From assembly GCA_011051755.1 (NCBI GenBank), contig DRKN01000093.1:1-37032 (forward strand): DNA of 37,032 nucleotides. The letters are read 5' to 3'. The notes below the pieces were generated by a model that saw only the letters and a program-made list of their open reading frames with translations, did no database searches and was not told where the DNA came from. This document shows positions 12,160-36,709 of the stretch, one piece after another (position 1 is the stretch's first letter; each line of letters opens with the position of its first letter). The stretch comes from Gammaproteobacteria bacterium (GTDB taxonomy: Bacteria; Pseudomonadota; Gammaproteobacteria; SZUA-152). The translations under genes and the position numbers were made by a program.

Positions 12160-12175
12160 AGCCGCAAAATATCTG

Positions 12176-12225
12176 TTGCCACAGAGGCACAAGAGAACAC
12201 GAAGTTCTCCGTGCCTCTGTGGCAA
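12176..12225. repeat. Long hairpin between the Trm112-like gene and kdsB
   Basis: TTGCCACAGAGGCAC-AA-GAGAAC-ACGAA-GTTCTC-C-GTGCCTCTGTGGCAA: 15-bp perfect outer stem and 6-bp inner stem. Confidence 0.9.
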
Positions 12226-12256
12226 GCGCATTTGAATTCAAACTGAGAACCGCCCC

Positions 12257-13021
12257 GTGAGTTTCTGTGTCGTCATTCCCGCCCGTTATGCGGCCACGCG
12301 TCTGCCGGGCAAGCCGTTGCTGGATATTGCCGGAAAACCCATGATTCAGCACGTGCACGAGCGTGCGCAGGAAAGTGGTGCCGAGAGCGTGATCATCGCC
12401 ACCGATGACAGCCGTGTGCAGGTCGCCGCCGAGGGCTTCGGTGCGCGCGTATGCATGACATCAAGCGAGCATCGTTCCGGCACCGACCGGCTCGCCGAAG
12501 TGGTGGATCAGTTGGGTCTCGATGACGGGCGGGTTGTCGTCAACCTGCAGGGCGACGAACCACTGATGCCGCCGGCGGTGATACACCAGGTGGCGGACAA
12601 TCTGACGCTGCACCCGGTTGCCGGCATGGCCACGGTATGCTGTCGTATCACCACCGCCGCCGAGCTGTTCGACCCCCATGTGGTGAAGGTGGTGATGGAC
12701 GCCAAGGGCATGGCGGTATATTTCAGCCGTGCGGCGATTCCCTGGGATCGCGATGCCTTCGCCAGTACCACTGAGACGTTGCCAGTACGCTCGGCGCATT
12801 ACCGACACATTGGCCTGTACGCCTACCGTGCCGGTTTTCTGCGTCAGTACGTCGACTGGCCAAGCTGCCATCTGGAGGATATGGAATCCCTCGAACAACT
12901 ACGCGCCCTTTGGCACGGCCAGCGTATCCACGTGGCCGAGGCCGTCGAGACGCCGCCAGCGGGAGTGGATACGGTGCGGGATCTCGAGATCGTGCGCGCC
13001 CGGCTTGGCGCCAGTTCCTGA
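12257..13021 (+). CDS. kdsB: 3-deoxy-manno-octulosonate cytidylyltransferase
   Basis: GTG start; [55 protein letters not shown]. Confidence 0.96.
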
Positions 13022-19114: not shown

Positions 19115-19750
19115 TTAGCGGGTGGTTGTTGAGTTGCTCGCCATCAACATCCCCTCACGGATTAAAAAATCAATCACGACATCCAGACCTTCACAGGTTT
19201 TTAGCTGGGTGAAGACGAAGGGCTTGCTGCTGCGCATGCGTTGACTGTCGATGTTCATGACCTCCAGGGATGCCCCCACCATCTCGGCAAGATCAATCTT
19301 GTTGATGACCAGAAGGTCAGACTTGGTAATGCCGGGGCCGCCTTTACGCGGGATTTTTTCACCGGAAGCGACGTCGATGACATAAATCGTCAGATCCGCC
19401 AGTTCCGGGCTGAAGGTTGCGCTGAGGTTGTCGCCACCGCTTTCGATAAAAATGATGTCGAGACCCGGAAATTTCTGCGACAGATCCTCCACGGCGGCCA
19501 GATTCATGGAAGCATCTTCGCGAATGGCGGTGTGCGGGCAGCCGCCGGTTTCTACGCCGACGATACGCTCTGCTTCCAGTGCCTGCGCTTCGGTGAGGAT
19601 GCGTTGGTCTTCGCGGGTATAGATATCATTGGTGACCACGGCGATGTCGTAGTCATTGCGCATGGCCTTGCATAATTGCTCAAGCAGGGCGGTCTTGCCG
19701 GAGCCGACCGGACCGCCGACACCAACGCGCAAGGGGGCCTTTGAATTCAT
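19115..19750 (-). CDS. ureG: Urease accessory GTPase UreG
   Basis: [22 protein letters not shown]-loop, [35 protein letters not shown]. Confidence 0.98.
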
Positions 19751-19771
19751 ATTTTATTCCTCACTTAATTT

Positions 19772-19821
19772 AGTACCTTGGAAAAATTTCGTGAAGGTAC
19801 TTATCCCGTTCATTTGGGTTA
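19772..19821. repeat. Dispersed repeat family C, short copy between ureG and ureF
   Basis: AGTACCTT...ATTTCGTGAAGGTACTTATCCCGTTCATTTGGGTTA; last 36 bp match 16488-16523 with 2 mismatches; its final TTA is the ureF stop on the minus strand. Confidence 0.8.
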
Positions 19822-20523
19822 GGATCTGAATAAACGGCTGTACTGGGTTTCGTGCAGGCTGCTGGCAATGGCCTGGGCCGGTGTGCTGGCGCCAATGGCG
19901 TCATCTTCAAGTGCGATGGCATGTTCAACGGCGACGTTAATTTCCGCGCTGAATTGGTACAGGAGTTGCTGGCCTTCGGTTTGTCCCAGCGGCACCAGTT
20001 TGATGGCGGCCGCAACCGTGTTTTCCAACCAACTCCAGGTGTAGCCCGTGAGTAAATTCCGCAGGGGAATCCGCCAATGATGTGCAGCCAGCGCATAAGC
20101 TGCCAGTTGGCAACACATGAGAGAAGAGCGCCAGTTTTCCAGCGGCGGCCAGTCGTGGCTGTCGGGTAGCTGTTGCAATACCTTAAACAGGGCTCGCGCC
20201 CGCTGTTGTTCTTCGTTGCGGAGTTCAGAGGTTTCACGACTGGCGTACAGCCACTGAGCCCAATAATGGAATTCCGTGTGATTGTCACTGTTGACGGCAT
20301 CAAACAGTCGGACTAAAAGAGGTAGTTCGAGAGTTTGCAGGCTGTCGTCCAATACGGATTTCAGCCAGTGACAAGTGTCCGTTTTGTTGTGTATCCAGCC
20401 GCACTCAACGGCCCACTCCAGCCCCTGCGAATAGGTAAAGGCACCGGTCGGCAGATTGGGACTGATCAACTGCAGTAGACGCAGGCCTGGCAGGCCAGGA
20501 TTGGATAAGTCAATGTCAGGCAT
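19819..20523 (-). CDS. ureF: Urease accessory protein UreF
   Basis: LRLLQLISPNLPTGAFTYSQGLEWAVECGWI; position beside ureG. Confidence 0.96.
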   Translation of the reverse strand: MPDIDLSNPGLPGLRLLQLISPNLPTGAFTYSQGLEWAVECGWIHNKTDTCHWLKSVLDDSLQTLELPLLVRLFDAVNSDNHTEFHYWAQWLYASRETSELRNEEQQRARALFKVLQQLPDSHDWPPLENWRSSLMCCQLAAYALAAHHWRIPLRNLLTGYTWSWLENTVAAAIKLVPLGQTEGQQLLYQFSAEINVAVEHAIALEDDAIGASTPAQAIASSLHETQYSRLFRS

Positions 20524-20758
20524 GGTTTGTTGTTTTTGCCCGTATCCGTGCAGAGTGTGCGCTACTCAATAGACCGGACAGGCCGATGAGCAGGGCGGCG
20601 ACGAGCAAAATCCCGGCAATGATGAATCCCGTGCCCGCCATTTCAACGCAGTGGGCCCAGGCATGGGCCAGCAGACCCGTTGACGGGCCAGTGTCATGCG
20701 CCTGCGCCAACGGGGATGTCAAGGCTATACCAATGATCAGTAGTATTTTTGATGTCAT
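20516..20758 (-). CDS. Small membrane/exported protein in the urease operon (80 aa)
   Basis: ATG at 20758 with AAGGA about 7 nt upstream, starting about 10 nt after the ureE stop and overlapping the ureF start; signal peptide MTSKILLIIGIALTSPLAQA, then AHDTGPSTGLLAHAWAHCVEMAGTGFIIAGILLVAALLIGLSGLL. Confidence 0.75.
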   Translation of the reverse strand: MTSKILLIIGIALTSPLAQAHDTGPSTGLLAHAWAHCVEMAGTGFIIAGILLVAALLIGLSGLLSSAHSARIRAKTTNHA

Positions 20759-20768
20759 GGGATGTTCC

Positions 20769-21251
20769 TTATTCGTGGTTATGTGAATAGCTGTGTGAAT
20801 GATGGTGGCCTTCAGCGGCCTGTTGATAGGCGCCGGCCTCCGGTTCAAAGGGGGCTTGCTCAACAATCACTGCAAGGCCCATTTGTCGCACCATGTCATC
20901 CAATACATGGTCGTGCTGGTAACGCAGCCAGCCCTTTTCCACTTGCAGGGGAATGTGACGATTGCCCAGGTGATAGGCCGCACGGGCCAGCAGGGTGGGG
21001 TCATCGCTATGGAGGGTGGAAACGGTTTCGGCCGCGGCGATCAGTTCAATGATCAGGCCGTCACCATTGCCCAGTCGATCACCGCCCCGCAGCAGGGTGC
21101 CGCGTGGCAAAAACAGACCTACGTCCCGGCCATCGTCCAACCTGGTGCGCAGGCGACTGCGCACACGTTGTTCGATGGGCAGGGTCAGTCGGCCGTCGAT
21201 GTCGCCACGTTTATCCATCACCGCATCAATAATGTATGTCAGTTCAATCAT
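20769..21251 (-). CDS. ureE: Urease accessory metallochaperone UreE
   Basis: RVRSRLRTRLDDGRDVGLFLPRGTLLRGGD, AYHLGNRHIPLQ and a His-rich C-terminus EGHHHSHSYSHNHE. Confidence 0.96.
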   Translation of the reverse strand: MIELTYIIDAVMDKRGDIDGRLTLPIEQRVRSRLRTRLDDGRDVGLFLPRGTLLRGGDRLGNGDGLIIELIAAAETVSTLHSDDPTLLARAAYHLGNRHIPLQVEKGWLRYQHDHVLDDMVRQMGLAVIVEQAPFEPEAGAYQQAAEGHHHSHSYSHNHE

Positions 21252-21265
21252 GGTTTAATCTCTCT

Positions 21266-21337
21266 GGGTCGAATTCCCCGCAGCTCGCCTAGCAACAGTA
21301 GGTTCTTTAAGAAAAGCGCCTGTTTTGGGTGCTGCGA
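21266..21337. repeat. Dispersed repeat family B, copy 2
   Basis: ...CAGCTCGCCTAGCAACAGTAGGTTCTTTAAGAAAAGCGCCTGTTTTGGGTGCTGCGA, aligned with 13957-14033. Confidence 0.75.
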
Positions 21338-21341
21338 TTAT

Positions 21342-21470
21342 CGTCATTCCGGCCTGTTTTTAGCCGGAATCCAGAGATTGCCGTCCCGGGATCCGGTTCT
21401 CACTGGAGCGATTCATCCAGAGTGCTCGAAGTTTCCTACACGCTGGATTCCCGCCTGCGCGGGAATGACG
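21342..21470. repeat. CGTCATTCC...GGAATCCAG inverted-repeat element between ureE and ureC
   Basis: CGTCATTCCGGCCTGTTTTTAGCCGGAATCCAG (21342-21374) and CTGGATTCCCGCCTGCGCGGGAATGACG (21443-21470) in opposite orientation. Confidence 0.85.
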
Positions 21471-21570
21471 GTATTCAGCACTCTTCAATACCCTGCTTTC
21501 ACGTGGCGAAATAGCCTGCTGTGAGGGTTGTTTATTACCGTTTTCTAAAACAAGGCGTTAAGATAAAGTT

Positions 21571-23274
21571 CTAAAACAAAAAATAACGTTGCGCCATGGG
21601 TAATACGGTGGCGGGTTCACAGGTCAACAGCGCACCGTCGGCACGTACCTCGTAGGTCTGTGAATCGACTTCGATATACGGTGTGTAGCGGTTATGAATC
21701 AAGTCCTGTTTTTTGACGTTCCGGCAGTTTTTCACCACCCCCACTTTTTTTTGTAATCCCAATTGTTCAACAATGCCCGCGGACATGGCCGCAGCGGAAA
21801 CAAAATTCATACTGGTTGAGGCCAAGGCCTTACCGAAACTGCCGAACATGGGACGGGAGTGCACCGGCTGCGGTGTGGGAATCGAGGCATTGGCATCGCC
21901 CATCAGCGCATGGGCTATCATTCCCCCCTTGATAATCAGCGTGGGCTTGATACCGAAAAAGGCCGGTGACCACAGTACCAGGTCGGCCAGCTTGCCCACT
22001 TCCACCGAACCGACCTCATGGGCGATGCCGTGGGTAATGGCCGGGTTGATGGTGTATTTTGCCATATAACGTTTCACCCGGTTATTGTCGTTGTCAGTGC
22101 TGTCGCCCTGCAGTGCGCCACGCTGCACCTTCATCTTGTGCGCGGTTTGCCAGGTGCGGGTAATAACTTCACCGACCCGGCCCATGGCCTGTGAATCGGA
22201 AGAAATCATCGAAAATGCGCCCAGGTCATGCAGGATGTCTTCGGCGGCGATGGTTTCGCGGCGAATACGGGATTCGGCAAAGGCCACGTCTTCGGCGATA
22301 CCGGCATCCAGGTGATGGCACACCATCAGCATATCCAGATGTTCATCAATGGTGTTGACGGTATAAGGCCGCGTCGGGTTGGTGGAGGAGGGCAGTACAT
22401 TGTCGAGCCCACAGGCACGGATGATGTCCGGTGCATGACCGCCTCCGGCGCCTTCCGTGTGATAGGTGTGAATGGTGCGGCCTGCAAAGGCGGCAATGGT
22501 GTCTTCCACAAAACCGGACTCGTTCAGAGTATCGGTATGAATCGCTACCTGCACATCGAAGGCTTCTGCAACGTTCAGACAATTGTGAATGGCCGCCGGC
22601 GTGGTGCCCCAGTCTTCATGCAATTTGAGTCCCATGGCGCCGGCGGCGATCTGCTCGTGCAAGGCATCGGGCAGACTGGCATTGCCCTTGCCCATAAAAC
22701 CCAGATTCATGGGAAAGGCCTCGGCGGCTTCCAGCATACGGTGGATATTCCACGGCCCCGGTGTGCAGGTGGTGGCATTGGTGCCAGTGGATGGGCCGGT
22801 GCCGCCACCGAGCATAGTGGTGATACCCGAGGCCAGTGCTTCTTCTATCTGTTGCGGGCAGATAAAATGAATGTGGGCGTCGATGCCCCCGGCGGTGATA
22901 ATCTTGCCCTCGCCACCGATCACATCCGTGCCGGGGCCGATAACAATATCCACATTGTCCTGCACATCGGGGTTGCCCGCCTTGCCGATGGCGGCGATAC
23001 GGCCGCTTTTAATGCCGATGTCGGCCTTGACGATGCCCCAGTGATCGATAATCAGCGCATTGGTGATGACCAGGTCGGCCACCTCGGCGGAGATGGCCTG
23101 TGATTGCCCCATGCCATCACGAATGACCTTGCCGCCACCGAATTTGACCTCGTCGCCATAGGTGGTGAAGTCTTTTTCCACTTCTATCCACAGCTCGGTA
23201 TCCGCCAAACGCAATTTATCACCAATGGTGGGGCCAAACATTTCCGCGTAGGCCTGCCGGCTCATGGTCGCCAT
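21571..23274 (-). CDS. ureC: Urease subunit alpha UreC
   Basis: 567 aa; [56 protein letters not shown] (carbamylated Lys region), MVCHHLD. Confidence 0.99.
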
Positions 23275-23603
23275 TATTGTTGTTCCTCCGCCGAATTATT
23301 CAATGCGCCCATGACCTTGCCCTGAAAGCCGTACACGATACCTTTGCCGGCAAAAATCACCAATTCAACGCTGCGATGTTGCCCCGGCTCAAAACGCACT
23401 GCCGTACCGGCAGGGATATTGAGCCGGTAGCCACGGGTTTTTTCACGCTCGAATTTCAAGGCCGTGTTGGACTCGTAAAAATGATAGTGCGAACCAATTT
23501 GAATAGGCCGGTCACCGCTATTGGCGACGTCGATACGCAAGGTTGCACGTCCTGAATTGATCTCGATATCGCCTGTGCGGATCTTCATTTCGCCCGGAAT
23601 CAT
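23274..23603 (-). CDS. ureB: Urease subunit beta UreB
   Basis: Likely start [49 protein letters not shown]. Listed ORF extends to 23627. Confidence 0.97.
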
Positions 23604-23626
23604 CGTTTGCTCCAATTGTTGTACCA

Positions 23627-23929
23627 TCAGCTAATCGGTTGATGAACGGTGACCAGTTTGGTGCCATCGGGAAAGGTGGCCTCGACCTGCACCTCATCAA
23701 TCATCTCTGCGATGCCATCCATGACCTGCTCCACGCTGAGTATCCGGCGGCTTTCGTTCATCAGTTCGGCCACCGTCTTGCCATCACGGGCGCCTTCCAT
23801 AATGGCGGCGCTGATATAGGCCATGGCCTCGGGATAGTTGAGTTTGACGCCGCGTGCCAGTCGGCGTTCAGCCAGCAATGCAGCGGTAAACAGTAGCAGT
23901 TTGTCTTTTTCGCGCGGGGCTAAGTCCAT
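23627..23929 (-). CDS. ureA: Urease subunit gamma UreA
   Basis: [57 protein letters not shown]. Confidence 0.98.
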
Positions 23930-23998
23930 CGGTCTGCCTTTTTTAAAAGAAGAGTAAAGTTTACAAGCATGTGTCTAAACCACGTCTGAATTTTCAGT

Positions 23999-24065
23999 GT
24001 AGGGTGGGCATTGCCCACCATTGATATCTGGTTAGAGCAGAATCGGTGGGCGCTGCCCACCCTAC
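23999..24065. repeat. GGTGGGC-family inverted-repeat pair between ureA and ureD
   Basis: GTAGGGTGGGCATTGCCCACC (23999-24019) and GGTGGGCGCTGCCCACCCTAC (24045-24065), arms 19/21 complementary; the second arm encodes the ureD stop. Confidence 0.85.
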
Positions 24066-24934
24066 GTTGCCCATATTCGTGGTGGCACAGCAGTACGATC
24101 AAGCAGTTTGGGGCGTAATATGCGCCAAATTTCAGTGAGCTTCCGTTTCAAGCTTTCACTGTTGTTTCCCAAGCCACGAACCACCAGCAGGCCATCGATA
24201 AGCGTGACCCCCAGCGGTGTTGACGCGCCATTTTTCGTCAGATATTCACGTACTGTCTCAAGATGATCTTCGTTACAGGGAAAGGCCAACAGGGTCGCCT
24301 GTATGGGGTGATCACGCAGGCCTGCTGCCGCGGACAGGGTTTTCCTGTCGAGCACGCGCTGGCTTTCCACCAGTAACAGTGTCTGGTTATGATAGAACGA
24401 CAAGCGGGAATCAAAGGCGCCGTGTTCAAACCGCTCATGGCTGGCGGGGCGCCCCAGGCAACTGACATCCCAGCCGATGAAGACGGCGTCATCTTCCAGT
24501 TCGATGCGGGTGCGGACGCGCAAGCGAGCGCCGGCAAAGAGAATGTTTTCCTGTGGCAGCCATTCGAGACTGGCGCCGGCCTTGACGCAAAAGGTCTGTT
24601 GCAGAGACGCCCATTCACCGGCGCTCAAGTAAAATTTACCGGAGCCAGGGGTGGTACACAGCACCTGGGCCTTGTCGGTGACTTCCAGCGTAATCTGTAG
24701 TTGATCGCCGCCGACCACGCCACCGGGTGGATGAAGAATATAGATATGTGCGAGGTTTCCCTCGGGATAAAAGGGGCGTTGCACACGTAGCGGGCCAATG
24801 TGCCGGCTGTATTTGATTCGGCTGCGTGAAATAGGGGAGGGCGAATTGTTTTGTGCAAAACCCAGCGTCAGTTGTGCCAGCCAGCCAGCGGAAGCTGTCG
24901 TATTTTTCTCCTGTAGCAAAGACGCCGGATTCAT
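24062..24934 (-). CDS. ureD: Urease accessory protein UreD
   Basis: PLRVQRPFYPEGNLAHIYILHPPGGVVGGDQLQI; ATG overlaps the urtE stop (ATGA). Confidence 0.96.
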   Translation of the reverse strand: MNPASLLQEKNTTASAGWLAQLTLGFAQNNSPSPISRSRIKYSRHIGPLRVQRPFYPEGNLAHIYILHPPGGVVGGDQLQITLEVTDKAQVLCTTPGSGKFYLSAGEWASLQQTFCVKAGASLEWLPQENILFAGARLRVRTRIELEDDAVFIGWDVSCLGRPASHERFEHGAFDSRLSFYHNQTLLLVESQRVLDRKTLSAAAGLRDHPIQATLLAFPCNEDHLETVREYLTKNGASTPLGVTLIDGLLVVRGLGNNSESLKRKLTEIWRILRPKLLDRTAVPPRIWAT

Positions 24935-25626
24935 ACGGTTAAATATTCCTTGATCAGCTCTTTGGAGAGATTGTCCACCTGGCCCTTGGCGACCGGACGT
25001 CCACGGTCGAGGATGCAGAACTTATCGGCCACCTTTTTTACAAAGGGTAGTTTTTGTTCCACCAGCAACACCGTCATACCCATTTCGCGGTTAAGCTTGC
25101 CGATGATATCGCCGATTTCCGCTACGATGTTGGGTTGGATGCCCTCTGTCGGCTCATCCAGAATCAGTAATTTGGGATCAATGACCAAGGCGCGTCCCAC
25201 CGCCAGTTGCTGTTGCTGGCCGCCGGACAGGTCGCCACCGCGACGTTGATGCATTTCTTTTAGTACCGGAAACAGTTCATAGATGAATTGCGGTATCTTA
25301 CGTGCACGGTCGGGGCGGGCCGGTAGGCCAATTTGCAGATTTTCTTCCACGCTCAGCATGGGAAAAATCTGCCGGCCCTGCGGCACATAGCCAATCCCCT
25401 GTTTTGCTCGTTGCTCCATCGGCAGGGTGTGCAGGGCCATGTCCCGGTAATGGATCTCGCCAGACGCAATCGGCAGGGCGCCCATGATGCAATTGAGTAA
25501 AGTGGTTTTGCCGACGCCATTGCGACCCATCAGGCAAGTGCACTCGCCTTCGCTGACATCAAGCTCAATATCCCACAGAGTGTGGCTTTGACCGTAAAAT
25601 TGATTGAGACCACGGACTGTTAACAT
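24931..25626 (-). CDS. urtE: Urea ABC transporter ATP-binding protein UrtE
   Basis: LivF-like ATPase MLTVRGLNQFYGQSHTLWDIELDV, GRNGVGKTTLLNC, LSGGQQQQLAVGRAL; urt gene order. Confidence 0.95.
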   Translation of the reverse strand: MLTVRGLNQFYGQSHTLWDIELDVSEGECTCLMGRNGVGKTTLLNCIMGALPIASGEIHYRDMALHTLPMEQRAKQGIGYVPQGRQIFPMLSVEENLQIGLPARPDRARKIPQFIYELFPVLKEMHQRRGGDLSGGQQQQLAVGRALVIDPKLLILDEPTEGIQPNIVAEIGDIIGKLNREMGMTVLLVEQKLPFVKKVADKFCILDRGRPVAKGQVDNLSKELIKEYLTV

Positions 25627-25647
25627 GTGATTCTTTTGCTCATTGGC

Positions 25648-26478
25648 TCATTCACCGAGATAGACTTCGATTACCCGTGGATCTGACTGTACTTCGGCCA
25701 TGCTGCCCTCCGCCAGCACACTCCCCTGGTGCAATACCGTGACCTTGCGCGCAATGGAGCGCACAAAATCCATGTCGTGCTCCACCACGATGACCGTGTG
25801 TTTGCCGGCCAATGAAGTGAGCAGCTCTGCGGTACGCTCCATTTCCTGATGCGTCATGCCTGCCACCGGTTCGTCCACCAGCAGCAAGGCCGGCTTTTGC
25901 ATCAACAGCATGCCGATCTCCAGCCACTGTTTTTGACCGTGAGAAAGCTTTCCAGCCGGATCGCTAGCTAACTCGTTGAGGCCGATGATGGTCAGCACTT
26001 CATCGATCAATTCACGCTGTTCCGTGCTGAGTCTTGCCACCAGTAGTGGCCAGACCCGTTTGTCCTGTGACATGGCCAGTTCGAGGTTTTGGGATACCGT
26101 GAGGTTTTCAAACACGGTCGGTTTTTGGAATTTTCGTCCGATGCCTGCCTCGGCAATCTCCGGTTCGTCCATCTCCAATAGATTCAGGCGTTGCCCGAAC
26201 CAGGCCTGGCCCGTGTCGGGGCGGGTTTTTCCGGTGATGATATCCATCATGGTGGATTTTCCCGCGCCATTGGGGCCGATGATACAGCGCAACTCGCCGG
26301 TTTCAATGTACAGATTGAGATTATTGATGGCCTTGAAACCATCGAAACTTTTATTGAGACCTTCAAGGTATAAAATAATATTGTGACTGACATCAAGCTC
26401 AGGAGGTACAGCCTTTACCAGAAAATCAAAGACCCGGTCGCGACGTGAAAATTCGCGCAAGATCTGCATGGCTTTCAT
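25648..26478 (-). CDS. urtD: Urea ABC transporter ATP-binding protein UrtD
   Basis: Likely start MKAMQILREFSRRDRVFDFL (26478), overlapping urtC; LivG-like IIGPNGAGKSTMMDIITGKTRPDTG, LSHGQKQWLEIGMLLMQ. Confidence 0.95.
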   Translation of the reverse strand: MKAMQILREFSRRDRVFDFLVKAVPPELDVSHNIILYLEGLNKSFDGFKAINNLNLYIETGELRCIIGPNGAGKSTMMDIITGKTRPDTGQAWFGQRLNLLEMDEPEIAEAGIGRKFQKPTVFENLTVSQNLELAMSQDKRVWPLLVARLSTEQRELIDEVLTIIGLNELASDPAGKLSHGQKQWLEIGMLLMQKPALLLVDEPVAGMTHQEMERTAELLTSLAGKHTVIVVEHDMDFVRSIARKVTVLHQGSVLAEGSMAEVQSDPRVIEVYLGE

Positions 26479-27563
26479 GTTTTTTCTCTCCGCATGTTGC
26501 GCAGCCCGACAATGCCCTTGGGCAGGTATAGGGTGACCAGTATGAACAGGGCGCCCAGTGCATACAACCACATTTCGGGTAATGCAGCGGTAAAATAGGT
26601 CTTGGAATAGTTCACCAGCATGGCGCCGATGACTGCGCCATAGAGCGTACCACGGCCACCAATGGCGACCCAGATCAGTAGCTCAATGGAATTCAGAGGA
26701 GAAAATTCACCGGGATTGATGATGCCGACCTGTGGCACATACAGTGCACCGGCAACGCCTGCCATGATGGCAGAAAAAACAAAAACCCATAATTTGATGT
26801 TCTCGACCCGGTAACCGCAGAAACGGCTGCGGCTTTCGGCATCCCGAATGGCGACACTGGCCAGCCCCAGTCGCGAGCTGACGATGATTCGGCTCAACAC
26901 ATAACCGATGGCCAGAGCCGCTGCCGAGGCCAGGAACAGGGCGATGCGGGTGCTGTCCGCGCGCAGATCAAAACCCAGAATATCTTTAAAATCCGTCAGG
27001 CCATTGTTGCCGCCAAAACCCATTTCATTGCGGAAAAAGGCCAGCATCAATGCATAGGTCATGGCCTGGGTGATGATGGACAGATACACGCCGGTGACCC
27101 GGGAGCGGAACGCCAGATAACCGAACACATAAGCAAGTATGCCGGGCACCACCATGACCATCAATGCAGCGAACCAGAACTGGTCGAAGCCGAACCAAAA
27201 CCACGGCAGTTCCTGCCAGTTGAGAAAAACCATGAAGTCCGGCAACACCGGGTCACCATACACGCCGCGTTCACCGATCTGGCGCATCAGGTACATCCCC
27301 ATGGCGTAGCCGCCCAGGGCGAAAAAGGCGGCATGGCCCAGGGTGAGAATGCCGAGATAACCCCACACCAGATCGGCGGCTAGGGCGAGCAGGGCATAGG
27401 TCAGATATTTACCGAGTAGGGTAACGGTGTACGTGGACAGGTGAAAGATGCTGCTCTCCGCTACCAGTAGATTCAGCACTGGTACGACGATGCTCACGAC
27501 CAACAGGGTGGCCAGCAACCAGACGCCCGGCCGGTCATTTTTTAGAATATTCATCAACAACAT
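26475..27563 (-). CDS. urtC: Urea ABC transporter permease UrtC
   Basis: LivM-like permease; LVWGYLGILTLGHAAFFALGGYAMGMYLMRQIG; urt order. Confidence 0.95.
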   Translation of the reverse strand: MLLMNILKNDRPGVWLLATLLVVSIVVPVLNLLVAESSIFHLSTYTVTLLGKYLTYALLALAADLVWGYLGILTLGHAAFFALGGYAMGMYLMRQIGERGVYGDPVLPDFMVFLNWQELPWFWFGFDQFWFAALMVMVVPGILAYVFGYLAFRSRVTGVYLSIITQAMTYALMLAFFRNEMGFGGNNGLTDFKDILGFDLRADSTRIALFLASAAALAIGYVLSRIIVSSRLGLASVAIRDAESRSRFCGYRVENIKLWVFVFSAIMAGVAGALYVPQVGIINPGEFSPLNSIELLIWVAIGGRGTLYGAVIGAMLVNYSKTYFTAALPEMWLYALGALFILVTLYLPKGIVGLRNMRREKT

Positions 27564-27566
27564 GAA

Positions 27567-29204
27567 TCAGTCCTCCGCCGCCCGGCCGCGTTGAGGGAAT
27601 AGCCCCTTGGGTCGTTTCTGTATGAACAGGATGATAAAAATCAGCACCAGGATCTTTGCCAGTACCGCCCCGGCCCAAGGCTCTATCAGTTTGTTGATGA
27701 CCCCAAGACTCATACCGGCCACCAAGGTACCCCACAGATTACCGACACCGCCGAATACCACCACCATGAAGGAATCAATAATATAGGCCTGACCGAGATT
27801 GGGACCTACATTGGTCAGCAGACTCAGTGCCACGCCGGCCAAGCCGGCAATGCCGGAGCCCAAGCCAAAGGTCAATGCATCAACCCATGTTGAGCGCACG
27901 CCCATGGCGCGCGCCATGGTGCGATTTTGTGACACCGCACGAACTTGCAAACCCAGGGTCGTTTTTTTCATCACCATAATGAGAGCCGCAAATACCGCCA
28001 GACAGAAAAGAATGATGTATAATCGATTCCAGGTTAGCGCCAACACTTCATTGATTTGCCAGGCGCCGGACATCCATTCCGGTGTCTCGACACTACGATT
28101 CAACGGCGAAAAAATCGTACGCACCATTTGCTGCAAAACCAGACTGACACCAAAAGTGGCCAGCAGGGTTTCCAGTGGACGACCGTATAAATGGCGAATG
28201 ACACTGCGTTCAATGGCAACGCCCACCAGCCCGGAAACAATAAAGGCCGCTGGAATGGCCACCAGTATCGAAGCGCCAATATTGTTCGGCATTAATAGCT
28301 GAACCACATAGGTGGTGTAGGCGCCGATCATCATGAGTTCGCCGTGGGCCATATTGATAACCCCCATCACACCGAAAGTGATGGCAAGGCCAATGGCCGA
28401 TAACGCCAGTACCGAGCCCAGGCTCAGGCCAAAAAATACTGTTTCGGCCTTGGCATAAAGATCACGTTTATCGTTGATCTTCTTGATGGCTGAGAGGGCC
28501 GCGTTTTTTAGTGCTTCAGTTGGTGCCTGATAGTTTCTCAATGCATTCATGGCTGAAGAATTGAGGCTTTGGGAAAGTGTTTCGATGGCTGATCGTTGTT
28601 CGGTTTCATTACCATTTTCAATCTGAATGACGGCCAGCAGTGTTCGCATGGTGGTAATTACCCGGCTGTCGGTTTCATTTTTTGCTGCTTTTTCAATCAA
28701 ATGGGAGGCGCTAAGATCGGGGTTTTTCAAAAGCTCCTGTGCGGCCGCCAGTCTGATGTCAGCATCCTTGTGTTTGAGCTGAATTACCGCGAGCAGTTGA
28801 CGAATGGTGCTGCGCAGACGGTTATTGACTTTTACTTTCTTAAAGCCGCGCCTGTTTTTCTGGCTTATCTGTTCACCATAAAAAACGGGGCTGAAGGTAT
28901 AGTGCTCCCCGGTTTCTTGTAAAAAATACAGTGCCTTGTTGTGTTTGGAGTAATATAGCTGTCCTTCCAGCATGGCCTTCATGACGGCAAGGGCTTGCGG
29001 TGGGTTTTGCCGTGCGATGGTTTCAAGGGCTTTGGCTTTGTTGTTGTAGTTTTTACTGGACAGCGTTTTCCAGGCATCATCCAGTAAATTGTTACCTGGT
29101 ATTTCTTCGGCCATAACCTGTGGGGCAGGGATACTGATAATGCACAGAAACAGCAATAGTGAAATCGGTTTTTTTACTAGAGCTGCTATTGAAAATGGCG
29201 ACAT
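27567..29204 (-). CDS. urtB: Urea ABC transporter permease UrtB
   Basis: About 545 aa with signal peptide, N-terminal helical-repeat region and LivH-like C-terminal permease (GVMGVINMAHGELMMIGAYTTYVVQ), as in UrtB. Confidence 0.95.
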   Translation of the reverse strand: MSPFSIAALVKKPISLLLFLCIISIPAPQVMAEEIPGNNLLDDAWKTLSSKNYNNKAKALETIARQNPPQALAVMKAMLEGQLYYSKHNKALYFLQETGEHYTFSPVFYGEQISQKNRRGFKKVKVNNRLRSTIRQLLAVIQLKHKDADIRLAAAQELLKNPDLSASHLIEKAAKNETDSRVITTMRTLLAVIQIENGNETEQRSAIETLSQSLNSSAMNALRNYQAPTEALKNAALSAIKKINDKRDLYAKAETVFFGLSLGSVLALSAIGLAITFGVMGVINMAHGELMMIGAYTTYVVQLLMPNNIGASILVAIPAAFIVSGLVGVAIERSVIRHLYGRPLETLLATFGVSLVLQQMVRTIFSPLNRSVETPEWMSGAWQINEVLALTWNRLYIILFCLAVFAALIMVMKKTTLGLQVRAVSQNRTMARAMGVRSTWVDALTFGLGSGIAGLAGVALSLLTNVGPNLGQAYIIDSFMVVVFGGVGNLWGTLVAGMSLGVINKLIEPWAGAVLAKILVLIFIILFIQKRPKGLFPQRGRAAED

Positions 29205-29265
29205 ATGTGGTCTCATTTTGAATGCTTAAAACTCAAGGGTGCATCTAACAATCACCGATAAATAA

Positions 29266-29380: not shown

Positions 29381-30676
29381 CTAGTAGTTTTGGCCACTGC
29401 ACTTTTTCGTTTTGACATTGTAGCTTCCGCAAGACAGCGGTGTGCGCCAGTCCGCAATCAGATCCTTGGAGCCCGGTAGATAGTCGGACCAGGCATCACC
29501 CGCCACCAGCCCCGAGGTCTCCCAAACAATATCAAATTGGCCATCTTTCTGAATTTCACCGATCAGTACCGGTTTAGTGATGTGGTGATTGGGCATCATT
29601 GCCGAGTATCCCCCGGATAAATTGGGTACACTGACACCGATCAGCGCTTCCTGAACGGCTGAGGGATCCGTGGTGCCGGCTTTTTCAACGGCCTTCACCC
29701 ACATGTTAAAGCCGATGTAGTGTGCCTCCATGGGGTCATTCGTCACCCGTTTTTTGTCCTTGATGAACGTTTTCCAGGCACTAATGAAGTCTTCATTTTC
29801 ATCCGACTCAACGCTCATAAAGTAATTCCACGCAGCAAGGTGGCCGACCAGAGGCTTGGTGTCAAGGCCGGAAAGCTCTTCTTCACCGACCGAAAATGCA
29901 ATCACGGGAATATCTTCAGCAGAAATGCCCTGATTGCCCAGTTCCTTATAGAAGGGGATATTAGCATCGCCATTGATCGTCGATACCACCGCGGTTTTCT
30001 TGCCAGCACTACCGAATTTTTTGATATCGGAAACGATGGACTGCCAGTCGGAATGACCAAAAGGTGTGTAATTGATCATGATGTCTTTTTCAGCGACGCC
30101 TTTTGCAAGGAGATAGGCCTTAAGGATCTTATTGGTGGTGCGTGGGTAGACATAATCGGTGCCAGCCAACACCCACCGTTCGACACCAATATCATCCATC
30201 AGATATTCAACGGCAGGTATGGCTTGCTGATTCGGTGCCGCACCGGTGTAAAACACATTTTTTGAGGATTCTTCACCTTCGTATTGCACGGGATAGAACA
30301 AAATGCTATTGAGTTCCTCGAATACCGGCAGTACGGATTTACGGGAAACAGAAGTCCAGCAGCCAAAGACCACATTGGTCTTGTTCTTGGAAATAAGTTC
30401 GCGCGCTTTTTCTGCGAACAAGGGCCAGTTGGAGGCCGGATCGACAACGACGGCTTCGAGTTTTTTACCCAGTAGGCCACCTTTCTTGTTTTGCTCATCG
30501 ATGAGCATCAGCATGGTGTCTTTCAGGGTGGTTTCTGAAATGGCCATGGTGCCGGACAATGAATGCAATATACCAACCTTGATGGTGTCTTCGGCCCAGG
30601 CCAGACCCGCGCTGGCCAGGGATAAGGTGGTGATTGCCGTTGCTAACGCCAGTTTTTTCAGCGTTGTTCTTATCAT
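29381..30676 (-). CDS. urtA: Urea ABC transporter substrate-binding protein UrtA
   Basis: Signal peptide then EDTIKVGILHSLSGTMAISETTLKDTMLMLIDEQNKKGGLLGKKLEAVVVDPASNWPLFAEKARELI. Confidence 0.97.
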   Translation of the reverse strand: MIRTTLKKLALATAITTLSLASAGLAWAEDTIKVGILHSLSGTMAISETTLKDTMLMLIDEQNKKGGLLGKKLEAVVVDPASNWPLFAEKARELISKNKTNVVFGCWTSVSRKSVLPVFEELNSILFYPVQYEGEESSKNVFYTGAAPNQQAIPAVEYLMDDIGVERWVLAGTDYVYPRTTNKILKAYLLAKGVAEKDIMINYTPFGHSDWQSIVSDIKKFGSAGKKTAVVSTINGDANIPFYKELGNQGISAEDIPVIAFSVGEEELSGLDTKPLVGHLAAWNYFMSVESDENEDFISAWKTFIKDKKRVTNDPMEAHYIGFNMWVKAVEKAGTTDPSAVQEALIGVSVPNLSGGYSAMMPNHHITKPVLIGEIQKDGQFDIVWETSGLVAGDAWSDYLPGSKDLIADWRTPLSCGSYNVKTKKCSGQNY

Positions 30677-30709: not shown

Positions 30710-31849
30710 TTAAATCTGGAATTGCATGCCAAAGGTAACGGCGGTGGTGTCATCACCCTTGGCGCCACTGGCATTGGCGTCACCATTGGTCACATTCAGG
30801 TTTAATCTGAGATTATGGCCTGAGATCACATAGTTGACGCCTAGCTCGGTCAGTGAGCTGCTTACGCCTGCCGAGGGACTGTTATTGGTGTAGCGCACAT
30901 AAGGTTGATACATTCCCGGGCCGCCGGTGTTGCCTAGCAGATAAGCAAAGCTGGCAAAATAGGCCTTACCATCAAACATCGAAAAGACCGGTGTTGCCGC
31001 ACGGGTGGAGACGTCAAAAGACTTGTACTCCGCTTCGACCGTGACCGCTGCGCCACCGGTCAGCGGCTTTTCAAACAGGCCATCGATGGCATAGCCCGTG
31101 AATGAACCCGATTGTGTGAACGTGCCATATCCGTCATCCTGTGATTGAACCGAAAGGGCCAGGGTCAGGATGTCACCGCCTTTGCCAAAATAGGTGCTGC
31201 TGGTGTAGTAGCCCGGATTGGATTCCTGATCCAGGATGTTGTACGCAAAACGGGCCGTGTACAAGGGCGCATCACTCTGGTTTTCAGCACCGCTATAGCC
31301 ATCAAATATGCCGACCGCATACTGGAATTTTCCCAAGCTACCCCAGGCGGTGATGCCTTCGTCACGGCCGTAAGTACCGGCCACGCCATTGGCGCCATTA
31401 TTGATATCGTTGTCTGACGGATAAAGTGGAACGGTATATTGTCCCCAGGTCAGTCCATAAAACGGGCCATTCATTTCTATGCGATCAGCCGGGGTCAGCA
31501 TGCGGCCCATCCACACATTGAATGCCTTGCCGGGTTCATACTGGATGATGGCGTCCAGCACACCATATTCACCCCACATCTTGTCGGTGCCAAAATAGAA
31601 CTTGAAATCTTTAGTGGCTTGGCCGGAGACATACAGGCGCATGTTTTCCAGGTTAAAATTACTGGCGCGGCTGCTACCATCGGGTGCGGCATCACTCACC
31701 GAGGCAATGGAGGTGCGGATACCGGCGCCAAAACTGACCCAACGGGTATCGTCAATGACAATTTTCCCACCGGCCAGAGCCGGCGTGCTGCTTACAGCGA
31801 GTAGGCCACCCACAAGCAGTGACGTCCCAACTACATTTTTCATTTGCAT
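30710..31849 (-). CDS. Outer-membrane beta-barrel porin-like protein, first gene of the urt/ure unit
   Basis: Likely start MQMKNVVGTSLLVGGLLAVSSTPALAGG; alternating beta pattern (MRLYVSGQATKDFKFYFGTDKMWG, YAVGIFDGYSGAENQSDAPLYTARFAYN) and C-terminal FGMQFQI; 33-nt gap to urtA. Confidence 0.75.
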   Translation of the reverse strand: MQMKNVVGTSLLVGGLLAVSSTPALAGGKIVIDDTRWVSFGAGIRTSIASVSDAAPDGSSRASNFNLENMRLYVSGQATKDFKFYFGTDKMWGEYGVLDAIIQYEPGKAFNVWMGRMLTPADRIEMNGPFYGLTWGQYTVPLYPSDNDINNGANGVAGTYGRDEGITAWGSLGKFQYAVGIFDGYSGAENQSDAPLYTARFAYNILDQESNPGYYTSSTYFGKGGDILTLALSVQSQDDGYGTFTQSGSFTGYAIDGLFEKPLTGGAAVTVEAEYKSFDVSTRAATPVFSMFDGKAYFASFAYLLGNTGGPGMYQPYVRYTNNSPSAGVSSSLTELGVNYVISGHNLRLNLNVTNGDANASGAKGDDTTAVTFGMQFQI

Positions 31850-31964
31850 TTCGAGTTTCCTGTGGCTACAGCCAATGGCCGATGAGAGATCGACAAATGT
31901 CAATGGAAAGCGCTGAAAATGCGATAAATGAACAGTTCCGGCGGCTTTCTTGAGGTTTTAGCTG

Positions 31965-31994: not shown

Positions 31995-32302
31995 TAAGTG
32001 CTAGTCTATCGATGCATGGACAGGGGGAGAATTCGTCATGTGGCACAGCGGCATACGTCAAATGACGCATGGTGGAAAAATGCTGTTTAGGCTAGGGGCT
32101 GTTCTCCATCATTTCGACCGTCCTGCCGGTGCGCATTTTTTGTCCGCCAAGGCGGCGCGAGTGCCGTGTGGTTGGTCCACATCAGCGAGCGCCAACGCCG
32201 TTGGGTGAACAATGAGCAGCGGCCCCTTTGGCGTCATTTATCAGCGAATTTGCGGTAGACTTACTCATATCGGTGTTTATCTCAGCTCATCTGAGCCGGG
32301 CG

Positions 32303-32345: not shown

Positions 32346-35300
32346 GTGCAACAGATCTCGATGAACAAGAATAAAGACGCACAACGCATCCGGCGCGAGT
32401 ACAACCAGTGGGTAGCCAATGAAACGTTGGAAGACTATGCCCTGCGTTATACCGCCAAACGGGCACGACGCTGGTCCACAGCTTGGGTTGCCAATACCGC
32501 GTTGGGCATTATTTCTTTCCTGGCACTGGAGGCCATCGGCGGCACCATCACCCTGAATTACGGTTTCACCAACGCCATGTGGGCGATAGTGGTGGTGGGA
32601 GGCATTATCTTTCTGTCCGGGTTGCCACTAGCCTATTATGCCGCGCGCGATGGCATCGATGTCGACCTTCTCACCCGTGGCGCCGGTTTTGGCTATATCG
32701 GTTCCACCGTTTCATCACTGGTTTACGCCTCATTCACCTTTATATTCTTTGCCATTGAAGCAGCAATCATGTCGATGGCCATCAATATGACCACGGGCAT
32801 TCCGATGTCGCTGGCCTATCTCATCAGCACCATCGTGGTGATTCCTCTGGTGACTCACGGCATCACGCGTATTTCCCATTTTCAGGCCTGGACACAACCT
32901 TTGTGGCTATTTCTGCAAATCCTGCCGTTGGTGTTTATCGGCATGCACGAGTCTGAAGCCTTTTCACAATGGCTCACGTTTGGCGGTTCTGCTGCCGGGG
33001 GAGAGCAAGGGTTTCAACTGCTGCTGTTTGGTGCGGCGGCAGCGGTGATTTTTCCCCTGATTGCCCAGAATGGCGAACAGGCCGACTTTTTGCGGTTTTT
33101 GCCGGAGCGAACCCAACAGAATAAAATCCAATGGTGGTTGGCCGTGGTGGGCGCCGGGCCGGGTTGGGTGATATTTGGTGTCATCAAGCTGTTTATTGGC
33201 TCATTTCTCGCCGTGCTCGCCCTGAATCACGGCTTATCTTCCACCTTGGCTGATGACCCGGCACATATGTATGCCGTGGCATTTAGCTACATTACGGTGA
33301 ATCCCGATATGGCGCTGTGGCTGGCGGGTATTTTTGTGGTCATTTCACAGTTGAAGATCAATGTTACCAATGCCTATGCCGGATCTATCGCCTGGGGTAA
33401 TTTTTTCTCACGGTTGACGCACAGTCATCCGGGGCGTGTGGTGTGGCTGCTGTTCAATGTGACGATTGCCCTGATGCTGATGGAGCTTGGACTTTATCAG
33501 GCCTTTGAAAGTATTTTGATTACCTACGGCTGTCTGGTGGTCGCCTGGGTGGCTTGCGTGGTAGCGGATCTGGTGATCAACAAGCCGCTGGGCCTGAGTC
33601 CGGCGCATATCGAGTTCAGACGCAGCCACCTGTACGACATCAACCCAGTGGGTGTGGTATCGATGTTTATCGCCTCTTGCGTCGGTATTCTCGCTAATTG
33701 GGGGCTTTTTGGCGAGATTGCAGAGGCCCTGGCCGCCTTCATATCTTTGCTGATCCCCTTTGTTACGGTACCACTCATCGCCTGCCTCACTCGGGGGCGG
33801 TATTATCTTTGTCGTCAAGCGGAGGAGGATGCCGTGCCTGGATCGCCACATAAGGAAACACAACAACGTTGCCAGGTCTGTGAAAACTGTTTTGATCACG
33901 AAGATATGAGTCAGTGTCCGAGTTATGATGGCGCGATTTGCTCATTGTGCTGTGCATTGGATTCCCGTTGTGGTAATCAGTGCCGCCCGCATGCCCACTT
34001 ATCGGTACAATCATCGTCACTATTCAGTCGGATACTGCCGGCGTTCATTCACCAGCGACTGCATTCTGTCACGGGACATTTTTTGGGCATGTTCTTCATA
34101 ACCACCGGCATTATCGCAGGTTTGCTTACGGTGGTTTTTTATGGTCAGCAGAACAAGACAGAAGCTGATTTGATATTAATCAGCGATGCATTATGGCAAG
34201 TATTTTTCCTCTTGATGTTGATCACCGGTGTCTTGGTCTGGCTTTATGTGCTGGCCCAGCAAAGTGCCCGCTTCGCTCTCAATGAAACACGGCTTCAAGC
34301 AGAATTGTTGGCCAATGAAGCAGAGGCACATGAGCAAACCGCAATAGAATTGGCGCAGGCACGTGATACGGCCAATGCAGCCAATCAGGCTAAGTCGCGC
34401 TATTTGTCAGGCGTTAGTCATGAATTAAGGACACCACTGAACACCATTTTTGGTTATTCCCAGCTAATGGAGGCCGACACCCGGCTGGATGCAAAAAACC
34501 AAAAAATTTCATCGGTGATAAGGCGCAGTAGTGAACATCTTGCAGATGTCATTGAAGGCCTGCTGGAAATTTCAAAAATCGAGGCGCATAAATTTGACTT
34601 GCGCCGTGATACGGTGGATCTGCGTTTGTTGATTCAACAGCTTGACGACATGTTTCGGCCATTGGCCAAGGATAAAGGCATTGATTTTATTGTTATTTGT
34701 CAGGCGGAACTGCCCCGGTTTGTTTCCACCGATGAGAAGCGGCTGCGACAAATCTTATTGAATTTGCTGTCCAACGCCATAAAATTTACCCTTGAAGGTA
34801 AAGTCGAGTTGCAAATCACCTACCGGAATCAGGTTTCCCGCATGATCGTCAGAGATACAGGCATCGGCATTGCCAAGGATGACCAGTCGAGGATTTTCGA
34901 ACCTTTTGAGCGAGTACATAATAAACAGACTCAATTGATTAGTGGTACTGGGCTGGGTTTGTCGATTAGCCGCCTGCTGGTAGAAATGATGGGAGGCAAT
35001 CTTGAACTGAAAAGTCAGCTTGAACAGGGCACGGAGTTTTGTCTGAGTCTTTTTTTACCGAGCGTGGACGAGCGGCTTACGGTGAATCAGGATCATGCCA
35101 ACATCTGTGGTTATGAAGGGAAATCTCGCCATATCATGATTGTCGATGATGAAAGCAGTCATCGGCATCTGATAAGTGATTTATTGCAGCCGCTAGGTTT
35201 TGTCGTTCATCAGGCAGAGTCGGCCGAACAGGCATTTGCCCTGTTGGAAGGACGGCTTCAGTCGATTGATTTGTTCTTGCTGGACATCAATATGCCTGAA

Positions 35301-35762
35301 GTGAATGGTTGGCAGTTATTGGAAGAGCTTCGCCAGCGTGGTTTCAAAAAATCCATCATCCTCCTTTCGGCCGATCCGTATGAAAATGCCACTTTGCAGC
35401 AAAAAGAGACGGGATTTGATGCTTATATCAATAAGCCGGTGCGTATTGAAAAACTGCTTAAACAATTGCAGCGCTGTCTCGATTTGCAGTGGCGAGGCAT
35501 TCAAGAAATTTCGCAAACAAATTCAAGGGACAGCGGCAATGGTGAAGCATTCCTTCCAGATCCTGACACAATGGATTCATTGAGAAATTTTGCAAGCATG
35601 GGTTACTTGAAAGGGGTGATGGAATGTATTGAATCTCTTGAATCACAGTATCCACAATCGCCCTGGGTTGCAAAAATAAGAGCACTAACGGATAAATGTG
35701 ATCTCGATAGTATTGTCCACATGATTGGTGAACTGGCTGGATCCAATGGCAGGGAACCCTGA
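32346..35762 (+). CDS. NCS1-family permease domain fused to Cys-rich segment, histidine kinase and receiver (hybrid transporter-sensor kinase)
   Basis: N-terminus YNQWVANETLEDYALRYTAKRARRWSTAWVANTALGIISFLALEAIGG is NCS1/CodB-like with multiple TMs; CQVCENCFDHEDMSQCPSYDGAICSLCCALDSRCGNQC; two further TMs; H-box SHELRTPLNTIFGYSQLM; N/G boxes NLLSNAIKFT, DTGIGIA, GTGLGLSIS; receiver IMIVDDESSHR...LFLLDINMPEVNG...INKPVR. The start could be ATG 32361. Confidence 0.9.
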   Translation: MQQISMNKNKDAQRIRREYNQWVANETLEDYALRYTAKRARRWSTAWVANTALGIISFLALEAIGGTITLNYGFTNAMWAIVVVGGIIFLSGLPLAYYAARDGIDVDLLTRGAGFGYIGSTVSSLVYASFTFIFFAIEAAIMSMAINMTTGIPMSLAYLISTIVVIPLVTHGITRISHFQAWTQPLWLFLQILPLVFIGMHESEAFSQWLTFGGSAAGGEQGFQLLLFGAAAAVIFPLIAQNGEQADFLRFLPERTQQNKIQWWLAVVGAGPGWVIFGVIKLFIGSFLAVLALNHGLSSTLADDPAHMYAVAFSYITVNPDMALWLAGIFVVISQLKINVTNAYAGSIAWGNFFSRLTHSHPGRVVWLLFNVTIALMLMELGLYQAFESILITYGCLVVAWVACVVADLVINKPLGLSPAHIEFRRSHLYDINPVGVVSMFIASCVGILANWGLFGEIAEALAAFISLLIPFVTVPLIACLTRGRYYLCRQAEEDAVPGSPHKETQQRCQVCENCFDHEDMSQCPSYDGAICSLCCALDSRCGNQCRPHAHLSVQSSSLFSRILPAFIHQRLHSVTGHFLGMFFITTGIIAGLLTVVFYGQQNKTEADLILISDALWQVFFLLMLITGVLVWLYVLAQQSARFALNETRLQAELLANEAEAHEQTAIELAQARDTANAANQAKSRYLSGVSHELRTPLNTIFGYSQLMEADTRLDAKNQKISSVIRRSSEHLADVIEGLLEISKIEAHKFDLRRDTVDLRLLIQQLDDMFRPLAKDKGIDFIVICQAELPRFVSTDEKRLRQILLNLLSNAIKFTLEGKVELQITYRNQVSRMIVRDTGIGIAKDDQSRIFEPFERVHNKQTQLISGTGLGLSISRLLVEMMGGNLELKSQLEQGTEFCLSLFLPSVDERLTVNQDHANICGYEGKSRHIMIVDDESSHRHLISDLLQPLGFVVHQAESAEQAFALLEGRLQSIDLFLLDINMPEVNGWQLLEELRQRGFKKSIILLSADPYENATLQQKETGFDAYINKPVRIEKLLKQLQRCLDLQWRGIQEISQTNSRDSGNGEAFLPDPDTMDSLRNFASMGYLKGVMECIESLESQYPQSPWVAKIRALTDKCDLDSIVHMIGELAGSNGREP

Positions 35763-36709
35763 TGCAGAGATTCAAGGACAAGACAACCGTGCTGGTTGTG
35801 GATGATTCACCGGATTCGTTGAGCATGGTCAATCTTGCTCTGGATGAAGCGGGCATTGCGGTTTTGATCGCACTCAATGGTCAACAGGCCATGAATGTAC
35901 TTGAGAAAATTACGCCCGATATCATTTTAATGGATGCCATGATGCCGGTGATGGACGGTTTTGAATGTGCCGGTGAGATCCGCAAGCGATTACCGCTGAT
36001 TCCGATTATTTTCATGACCGGCCTCAGTGACGTTGAGCACATCGTCAAGGCTTTTGACGCCGGGGGCAATGATTACATTGTCAAGCCGATTCACCCCGAG
36101 GAATTACTGGTGCGTATCCGTCAGCACATCAACAGCACACGCATGTTGATGGAGGCGCAAAAGGCGCTGGATTCACTGCGTCAATATGTCTTTTGCATCG
36201 ACAATCGAGGACATATTTTATGGGCGACCCCAGAGGCTCAAACCTTGTTGGATCAAGCACAAACAGCAGCGGACTCAATAAGGCTGGAGGAACGCTTCAG
36301 TCGCTGGTTACCCAATGGTCAGATTGGACACGATTTGGCCTTGCCCGTGAGCAAACAGGACACGATGCTGACAGTGTACTATTTCAAACAGACCGAAGAA
36401 GATGAATATCTTCTAAAAATCCAATCGCCCAATGTTGAAATTGATCCGGCAATTCTGGAACAGAGGTTGGCCATAACCTACCGTGAAGCAGAAGTTTTGC
36501 TTTGGTTGGCGCACGGTAAGACCAATCGGGAAATTGCCGAAATTCTTGAAATGAGTCCGAGAACCGTGAATAAACATCTGGAGCAAATGTTTCCCAAGAT
36601 CGGCGCGGACAATCGTACCGTTGCCGCCTCCGTTGCCATACAAATTATCCTCGGTGGGCGTATTGGGCGTCCACCAAACCAGGAATACTCTATTCAGGAA
36701 ATTAAATAA
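35762..36709 (+). CDS. Response regulator: REC, PAS-like linker, LuxR-type HTH
   Basis: TGATG overlap with the hybrid kinase; TVLVVDDSPDSLSMV...IILMDAMMPVMDG...YIVKPI; YVFCIDNRGHILWATPEAQTLL; LAITYREAEVLLWLAHGKTNREIAEILEMSPRTVNKHLEQMFPKIGADNRT. Confidence 0.93.
   Translation: MQRFKDKTTVLVVDDSPDSLSMVNLALDEAGIAVLIALNGQQAMNVLEKITPDIILMDAMMPVMDGFECAGEIRKRLPLIPIIFMTGLSDVEHIVKAFDAGGNDYIVKPIHPEELLVRIRQHINSTRMLMEAQKALDSLRQYVFCIDNRGHILWATPEAQTLLDQAQTAADSIRLEERFSRWLPNGQIGHDLALPVSKQDTMLTVYYFKQTEEDEYLLKIQSPNVEIDPAILEQRLAITYREAEVLLWLAHGKTNREIAEILEMSPRTVNKHLEQMFPKIGADNRTVAASVAIQIILGGRIGRPPNQEYSIQEIK

Follow-up and report, generated by a model that had tools for sequence, protein, structure and literature searches.

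The kinase and regulator gene pair

We examined a 37,032-nucleotide contig (DRKN01000093.1, assembly GCA_011051755.1; the whole stretch is referred to here as the window) from a gammaproteobacterium of the SZUA-152 lineage, in which a gene pair encodes a hybrid histidine kinase with a transporter-like N-terminal half and a LuxR-type response regulator. An earlier note, made from the letters of the window, had described one open reading frame (ORF) with an NCS1-like permease, a nine-cysteine segment, two additional transmembrane helices (TMs), a kinase core and a receiver, overlapping a regulator gene, and this architecture was borne out by the ORF itself, Pfam matches, a structural model and profiles. 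The single frame runs without interruption from 32346 to 35762 and overlaps the partner gene by one base (TGATG, 35760–35764). Since close homologues begin at a position equivalent to the ATG at 32361, this codon is a likelier start than the GTG at 32346 given in the ORF list, and the gene of the putative NCS1-like transceptor kinase is placed here at 32361–35762 (+ strand).

In the kinase, Pfam matches were found for HisKA (residues 682–747; 34389–34586, + strand), HATPase_c (residues 795–904; 34728–35057, + strand) and the receiver domain REC (residues 930–1041; 35133–35468, + strand), and the H, N, G1 and G2 boxes are intact, as are the Asp residues of the receiver; the protein is thus a hybrid histidine kinase. 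The partner (35762–36709, + strand) carries REC (residues 10–119; 35789–36118) and a GerE/LuxR helix-turn-helix (residues 238–292; 36473–36637), and is a response regulator of the NarL/FixJ (LuxR) type. A frame error that had joined separate permease and kinase genes, named beforehand as a way in which the description could fail, is excluded, because more than 50 independent genomes have the same fused frame of ~1,100–1,250 amino acids with zero internal stops.

An NCS1-derived N-terminal half

NCS1 proteins classically carry nucleobases, allantoin and hydantoins. The N-terminal half of the kinase (residues 21–485; 32424–33818, + strand; residue 1 is the codon at 32364) was modelled as a 12-TM domain of the NCS1/LeuT fold. 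The AF2 model, built from a 67-member alignment, had a pLDDT of 84.8 and a pTM of 0.87, and its best folds were CodB (Z 33.8 over 397 residues, 3.3 Å) and Mhp1 (Z 26–28.8), with the next families at 25.2 or lower. Foldseek also returned CodB (E 4.6e-10), and hhalign against an NCS1 reference set that we assembled ourselves gave a probability of 99.7 (E 2.1e-26, 389 columns). On the other hand, the curated models PF02133 and TIGR00800 did not match the window protein, and a PF02133 search of the window's genome gave zero matches at E 0.001. The NCS1-like assignment of the earlier note therefore stood on profile–profile and fold comparison but not on the PF02133 search that the note had proposed, and identification by Pfam and NCBIfam alone missed the permease domain. 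One relative, the kinase-less protein at locus L040, clears PF02133 by itself (31.8 bits against a cut-off of 23.5). Because of the fold ranking, the hhalign score and this L040 match, the N-terminal half is, by profile and model, an NCS1-derived domain that is well diverged and represents a related subfamily rather than a typical NCS1 protein. Pfam gave no match to STAC or SLC5 in the kinase, and SLC5-type entries ranked below NCS1 in the fold comparison. When the PDB sequences were searched with the profile, no NCS1 chain was returned, and the only matches were sub-threshold zinc-finger ones to the Cys region.

The Cys8 domain and the modularity of the NCS1+Cys unit

The NCS1 domain is followed by a cysteine-rich domain (33870–33983, + strand; C-x2-C-x11-C-x7-C-x2-C-C-x5-C-x3-C), probably a two-metal treble-clef, and by two extra membrane helices before the kinase (34068–34256, + strand), which the model places at residues 569–593 and 600–631. 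Eight of the nine cysteines are invariant in the alignment of 64–67 homologues, and we refer to the domain as Cys8. As the L040 protein lost exactly four of them (518, 530, 536 and 540) and kept the C-x2-C...C-x2-C part, the alignment suggests two four-Cys metal sites. The isolated domain model gave weak RING/PHD/FYVE-like matches only (E>0.1, none of them significant), which is consistent with, and does not prove, two metals.

The unit of NCS1 and Cys domains was also found on a PAS-kinase with a receiver (L037), on kinases without REC (L031, L166 and L179) and on a PAS-GGDEF-EAL protein (L038, 7351–11019), the last of which suggests a cyclic di-GMP output from the same sensor. In the tree, the fused forms make up a clade with 98% SH-aLRT support, and the kinase-less forms fall basal to it. 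The kinase-less forms could not be taken as one clade, since they branch successively at the base, with long-branch warnings. They keep the Cys domain; thus, the domain predates the kinase fusion or is independent of it.

Linkage to urea and amide genes

The gene pair in the window is divergent from a porin-urtABCDE-ureDABCEFG cluster on the minus strand. The first gene of this cluster, the predicted target, encodes an outer-membrane porin (30710–31903) with weak FmdC/ExtI-like similarity (NF040900, 79 bits against a cut-off of 150), followed by urtA (29381–30676; TIGR03407, 572 bits), a long form of urtB (27567–29216; TIGR03409, 435 bits), urtC, urtD and urtE (24931–27563; identified by ORFs and clustering with the Urt genes of homologous loci) and ureD-ureA-ureB-ureC-ureE-(hupE-like)-ureF-ureG (19115–24934; ORFs and clustering). 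The UrtB of the window has ~250 extra N-terminal residues with a weak HEAT match, and UrtB is short in the amide-type loci, so that urea-type and amide-type operons differ in this subunit.

Neighbourhoods were tabulated, as the earlier note had suggested, from named genomes and two random samples, one of which was a random sample of the phylum. The family was present in 52 of 398 sampled Pseudomonadota genomes (~13%), and urtA, fmdA or ureC accompanied it in 53 of 55 sampled loci (urtA in 45, fmdA in 37 and ureC in 9); both remaining loci end at contig ends. Typically, the kinase and regulator genes lie beside urtABCDE, mostly divergent from it, and then come fmdA, fmdB and often amiE, or urease genes. 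The partners are true equivalogs, as indicated by the matches to formamidase (NF045496, ~790 bits), aliphatic amidase (PRK13286, ~714 bits) and UrtA (TIGR03407), and no nucleobase or allantoin genes were seen among the recurrent neighbours. Some loci combine the kinase with a formamidase and have no ATP-binding cassette (ABC) transporter nearby (L166, L179 and the Methylovirgula plasmid pHY1). In pHY1 (L226, 7040–13366), kinase-regulator and formamidase/FmdB genes are arranged head to head with no annotated ABC transporter between them.

The module is also common on Klebsiella plasmids, with 342 records, where it comes with urtABCDE and formamidase and the kinase is labelled only 'ATP-binding protein'. 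Two 'Acinetobacter phage' records of 330–380 kb (CAKLQH020000001.1 and CAKLQF020000001.1, near 263 kb) contain the Cys domain within a protein named arcB, and may be plasmids labelled as phage. Since a genome of the same genus (G064) and one of the same family (G301) are without the module, it is an accessory locus in the window's lineage.

A predicted operator in the divergent promoters

A motif search by unsupervised expectation-maximisation in 50 non-redundant divergent intergenic regions identified an 18-bp palindrome, ATACGTCA-WW-TGACGTAT, with a log-likelihood gain of 468 as compared to 40–47 in shuffles. The palindromic model was imposed, and a non-palindromic run recovered the same element. 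The predicted operator of the window, ATACGTCAAATGACGCAT (32053–32070, between porin-urt and the kinase gene), has one mismatch to ATACGTCANNTGACGTAT and is the sole match at ≤2 mismatches in the 3.3-Mb genome.

Scanning 2.99 Mb of loci with the matrix at ≥20 bits gave 89 sites, distributed over 70 loci and each lying upstream of a urt, fmd, ami or kinase-family gene, and no such site elsewhere in the scanned sequence or in shuffled sequence; in these loci, the palindrome is thus specific to these promoters. Held-out sites, outside the training set, preceded fmdA and amiE where these stand as separate genes, as well as non-divergent urtA. On a held-out Klebsiella plasmid, a 25.1-bit site lies between urtA and the kinase gene, where the next best scored 4.1; the Klebsiella plasmid that was examined in this way (L225, NZ_CP094480.1, 2913–12372) is conjugative, of the IncFIB/IncFII type, with the operator in place. 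Where kinase and urtA are apart (L196, L197 and L202), the site remains ~90 bp from urtA, with imprecise hit ends.

Among whole genomes, an operator match was detected in 28 of 30 with the kinase versus 4 of 30 without it, and 29 of 42 operator sites were inside urt/fmd/ami clusters, including one before amiE in genome G596. Two one-mismatch sites outside the clusters were inspected, one of which is within an unrelated ORF. The other, around 7024 of L221 and outside the urt locus of genome G689, is flanked by a TorF-like porin gene and an rpe-like gene, and may be a chance match or an additional target. In pHY1, weaker operator-like sites lie at 8701 and also before the amidase at 17252.

From co-occurrence and symmetry, the LuxR-type partner is the putative binder of the palindrome. 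The sensor is linked to urea and amide genes and the predicted operator stands before them, as in a urea and short-chain-amide regulon. The earlier proposal that the pair serves the adjacent porin-urt-ure operon has thus gained near-total linkage and a conserved palindrome in the shared promoter region, with the control itself being predicted from the DNA.

The predicted pocket and cation site

MAFFT and hhalign concur in aligning TM1, TM3 and TM8 without gaps to CodB and Mhp1. In this alignment, CodB Gln105 and Trp108 correspond to Thr125 and Phe128 of the window protein and Mhp1 Gln121 to Glu132, whereas the position of CodB Phe204 is Leu232 or Ile233, depending on which of the two alignments is used. 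The NCS1 aromatic sandwich (the TM3 Trp108 and the TM6 Phe/Trp, Phe204 in CodB) is therefore predicted not to be kept. The Na+ ligands of CodB are Thr278 and Thr279 (PMC9379551), which align with an invariant Lys331 and a near-invariant Ile332, so that the TM8 hydroxyls of the Na2 site would also be missing.

Nine residues (Glu56, Thr125, Glu132, Gln235, Glu238, Gln239, Lys331, Asn333 and Asn336) are invariant in all 59 typed kinase-fused sequences and are identical whether the gene stands beside amide or urea genes. The operon type switched at least five times on the tree, with identical pocket residues in amide-type and urea-type loci. No specificity-determining residues between the two types of sensor were found in the pocket; thus, the operon type is unreadable from the sensor sequence. 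Glu56 is substituted in two kinase-less proteins, where an Asp lies one position earlier, and this change is a candidate difference between receptors and transporters, seen in two sequences. All these pocket assignments are read from alignment.

Ligand class and alternative explanations

Because the constant partners of the pair across Pseudomonadota are a urt-type ABC transporter together with either formamidase/aliphatic amidase or urease, the ligands probably belong to the class of urea and short-chain amides. The arrangements at L033, L040 and L207 point to the same class. At L033, a kinase-regulator pair, with the palindrome present, is divergent from a kinase-less NCS1+Cys gene (11266–12945) followed by fmdA-fmdB-amiE, with no ABC transporter, while at L040 a kinase-less NCS1+Cys gene (9588–11210) adjoins urease genes; both kinase-less proteins are candidates for unrecognised urea or amide carriers. 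At L207 (9174–14209), an outlier NCS1 gene without the Cys domain, whose protein has Arg at the position of Lys331, precedes genes for a nitrilase-type amidase, an AmiC-like binding protein and an AmiR/ANTAR regulator.

We consider it probable that the two genes encode a two-component system dedicated to sensing urea and short-chain amides (formamide and acetamide), with an NCS1-type receptor and a regulator that activates the uptake and hydrolysis genes; the ligand class, activation over repression, and a role as receptor more than transporter are what we infer from the data above. A former NCS1-type secondary transporter would act as the membrane receptor, in which binding of urea or a short-chain amide in a rebuilt polar pocket would shift the transporter conformation. 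The movement may then reach the kinase by way of the Cys8 metal domain, the additional pair of helices and a coiled coil, and phosphoryl flow from the kinase to the LuxR-type partner would lead to binding at the palindrome and activation of porin-urt-ure in the window and of urt-fmdA-fmdB-amiE elsewhere.

Several points weigh against this proposal. The phosphoryl path would go from receiver to receiver with no recognisable histidine phosphotransfer domain, and residues were matched to those of CodB at ~17% identity, although two methods gave concurring results. Furthermore, the operator is not universal, since a Comamonadaceae-type urease clade (L103, L107, L109, L176, L178, L195, L198 and L204) lacks it or has it in weak form, and in Bradyrhizobium it is altered to ATACGCAAGATCGCGTAT. 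Co-location also cannot tell urea or amide sensing from the sensing of ammonium or nitrogen status. The NCS1 domain might thus respond to ammonium or general nitrogen status as a repressing signal, with the pair derepressing urea and amide genes at low ammonium, as urea and amide loci do not differ in the pocket, Ks-Amt5 offers a precedent for an ammonium receptor-kinase (PMC5764959), and the fmdCABDEF operon of Methylophilus methylotrophus, according to a review, is induced by formamide and urea and repressed by ammonia (PMC10781810). However, nitrogen-status control would be expected at many operons, whereas the window's own genome has just one copy of the operator at ≤2 mismatches, and the kinase-less relatives adjoin formamidase/amidase or urease genes as carriers of those substrates would. 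We therefore regard ammonium sensing as unlikely.

The protein could also be mainly a second urea or amide transporter whose kinase reports flux, a dual role as proposed for CbrA, which transports histidine (PMC7096432). The loci with kinase and formamidase and without a nearby ABC transporter would suit this, but most loci already encode an ABC transporter, and the replacement of the Na+-ligand hydroxyls by Lys331 and Ile332 argues against it, although the kinase-less relatives have the same replacement, which could point to another kind of coupling; this explanation is quite improbable. A urea-yielding nucleobase, allantoin or hydantoin, the alternative of the earlier note, is very unlikely to be the ligand: it would agree with the classical NCS1 cargo and with CodB and Mhp1 as the nearest folds, but the recurrent neighbours are formamidase, amidase and urease genes with none for nucleobases or allantoin among them, the stacking Trp108 of CodB is Phe in the window protein and Gln105 is Thr. 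Of the ligands the note had put forward, a urea-related compound is thus retained as the likely class, and a purine or pyrimidine catabolite is not.

Comparison with known systems and significance

The family resembles the SLC5-STAC kinases CbrA, CrbS and RpuS (PMC7096432, PMC13022988, PMC9100948) in having a transporter domain of the LeuT superfamily on a histidine kinase for the control of nutrient-use genes. In CbrA, Lys196 occupies the Na2 site (PMC13022988), a likeness to the Lys331 aligned with the TM8 hydroxyls here. On the other hand, the input of the window family is NCS1, its linker consists of the eight-Cys domain and two TMs with no STAC identified, and its output is a REC-LuxR partner with a defined palindrome and linked urea and amide genes. 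Ks-Amt5 of Kuenenia is likewise a nitrogen-compound transporter recruited as a kinase receptor, but with the Amt fold and an ammonium ligand, and no linked urea or amide operon is described in the part of the report available (PMC5764959). Its input fold, linker and operator set the family apart from the SLC5-type kinases and Ks-Amt5, as does its probable ligand class. With CodB and Mhp1 (PMC9379551) it shares the fold and TM arrangement, TM1, TM3 and TM8 being gapless, while the window domain is fused to the Cys domain and kinase, has changed pocket and Na+-ligand residues and falls below Pfam detection. For the Methylophilus fmdCABDEF cluster, the portion of the review consulted describes no sensor kinase, and mentions a putative positive regulator encoded in the cluster (PMC10781810).

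Two pairs in print, each consisting of a hybrid kinase and a receiver/LuxR protein encoded next to urtABCDE, are very likely family members, as judged by their description: VIMSS583663/583664 of Dechloromonas aromatica, with a kinase of 1131 amino acids (PMC2907700), and the pair in operon III of Ectopseudomonas guguanensis G3 (PMC13296017). Both are listed under generic names only, and neither a function nor an NCS1 domain was recognised in them. No functional description of an NCS1-kinase was found in the main text of openly accessible papers.

More broadly, and with about even chances of being right, these proteins may form a new NCS1 subfamily in which the ligand moved from nucleobases to urea and short-chain amides and the Na+ site was exchanged for a fixed lysine. 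The NCS1+Cys8 unit would then be a swappable receptor module on hybrid kinases, PAS-kinases and a PAS-GGDEF-EAL protein, serving as a general urea and amide receptor of Pseudomonadota, also on conjugative Klebsiella plasmids, with the rare kinase-less forms as unrecognised urea and amide carriers.

Urea and short-chain amides are major nitrogen sources, and no bacterial membrane receptor for them is described in the searchable literature. The family is widespread, yet it is labelled 'ATP-binding protein' or 'hybrid sensor histidine kinase', including in hundreds of Klebsiella plasmid records, and it offers a ligand class and an operator sequence that can be tested, with kinase-less proteins as controls. 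If the proposal is true, the design of making a receptor from a transporter would extend to one more fold family in addition to SLC5 and Amt; the linker would differ, and the cation site would hold a lysine, as it does in CbrA.

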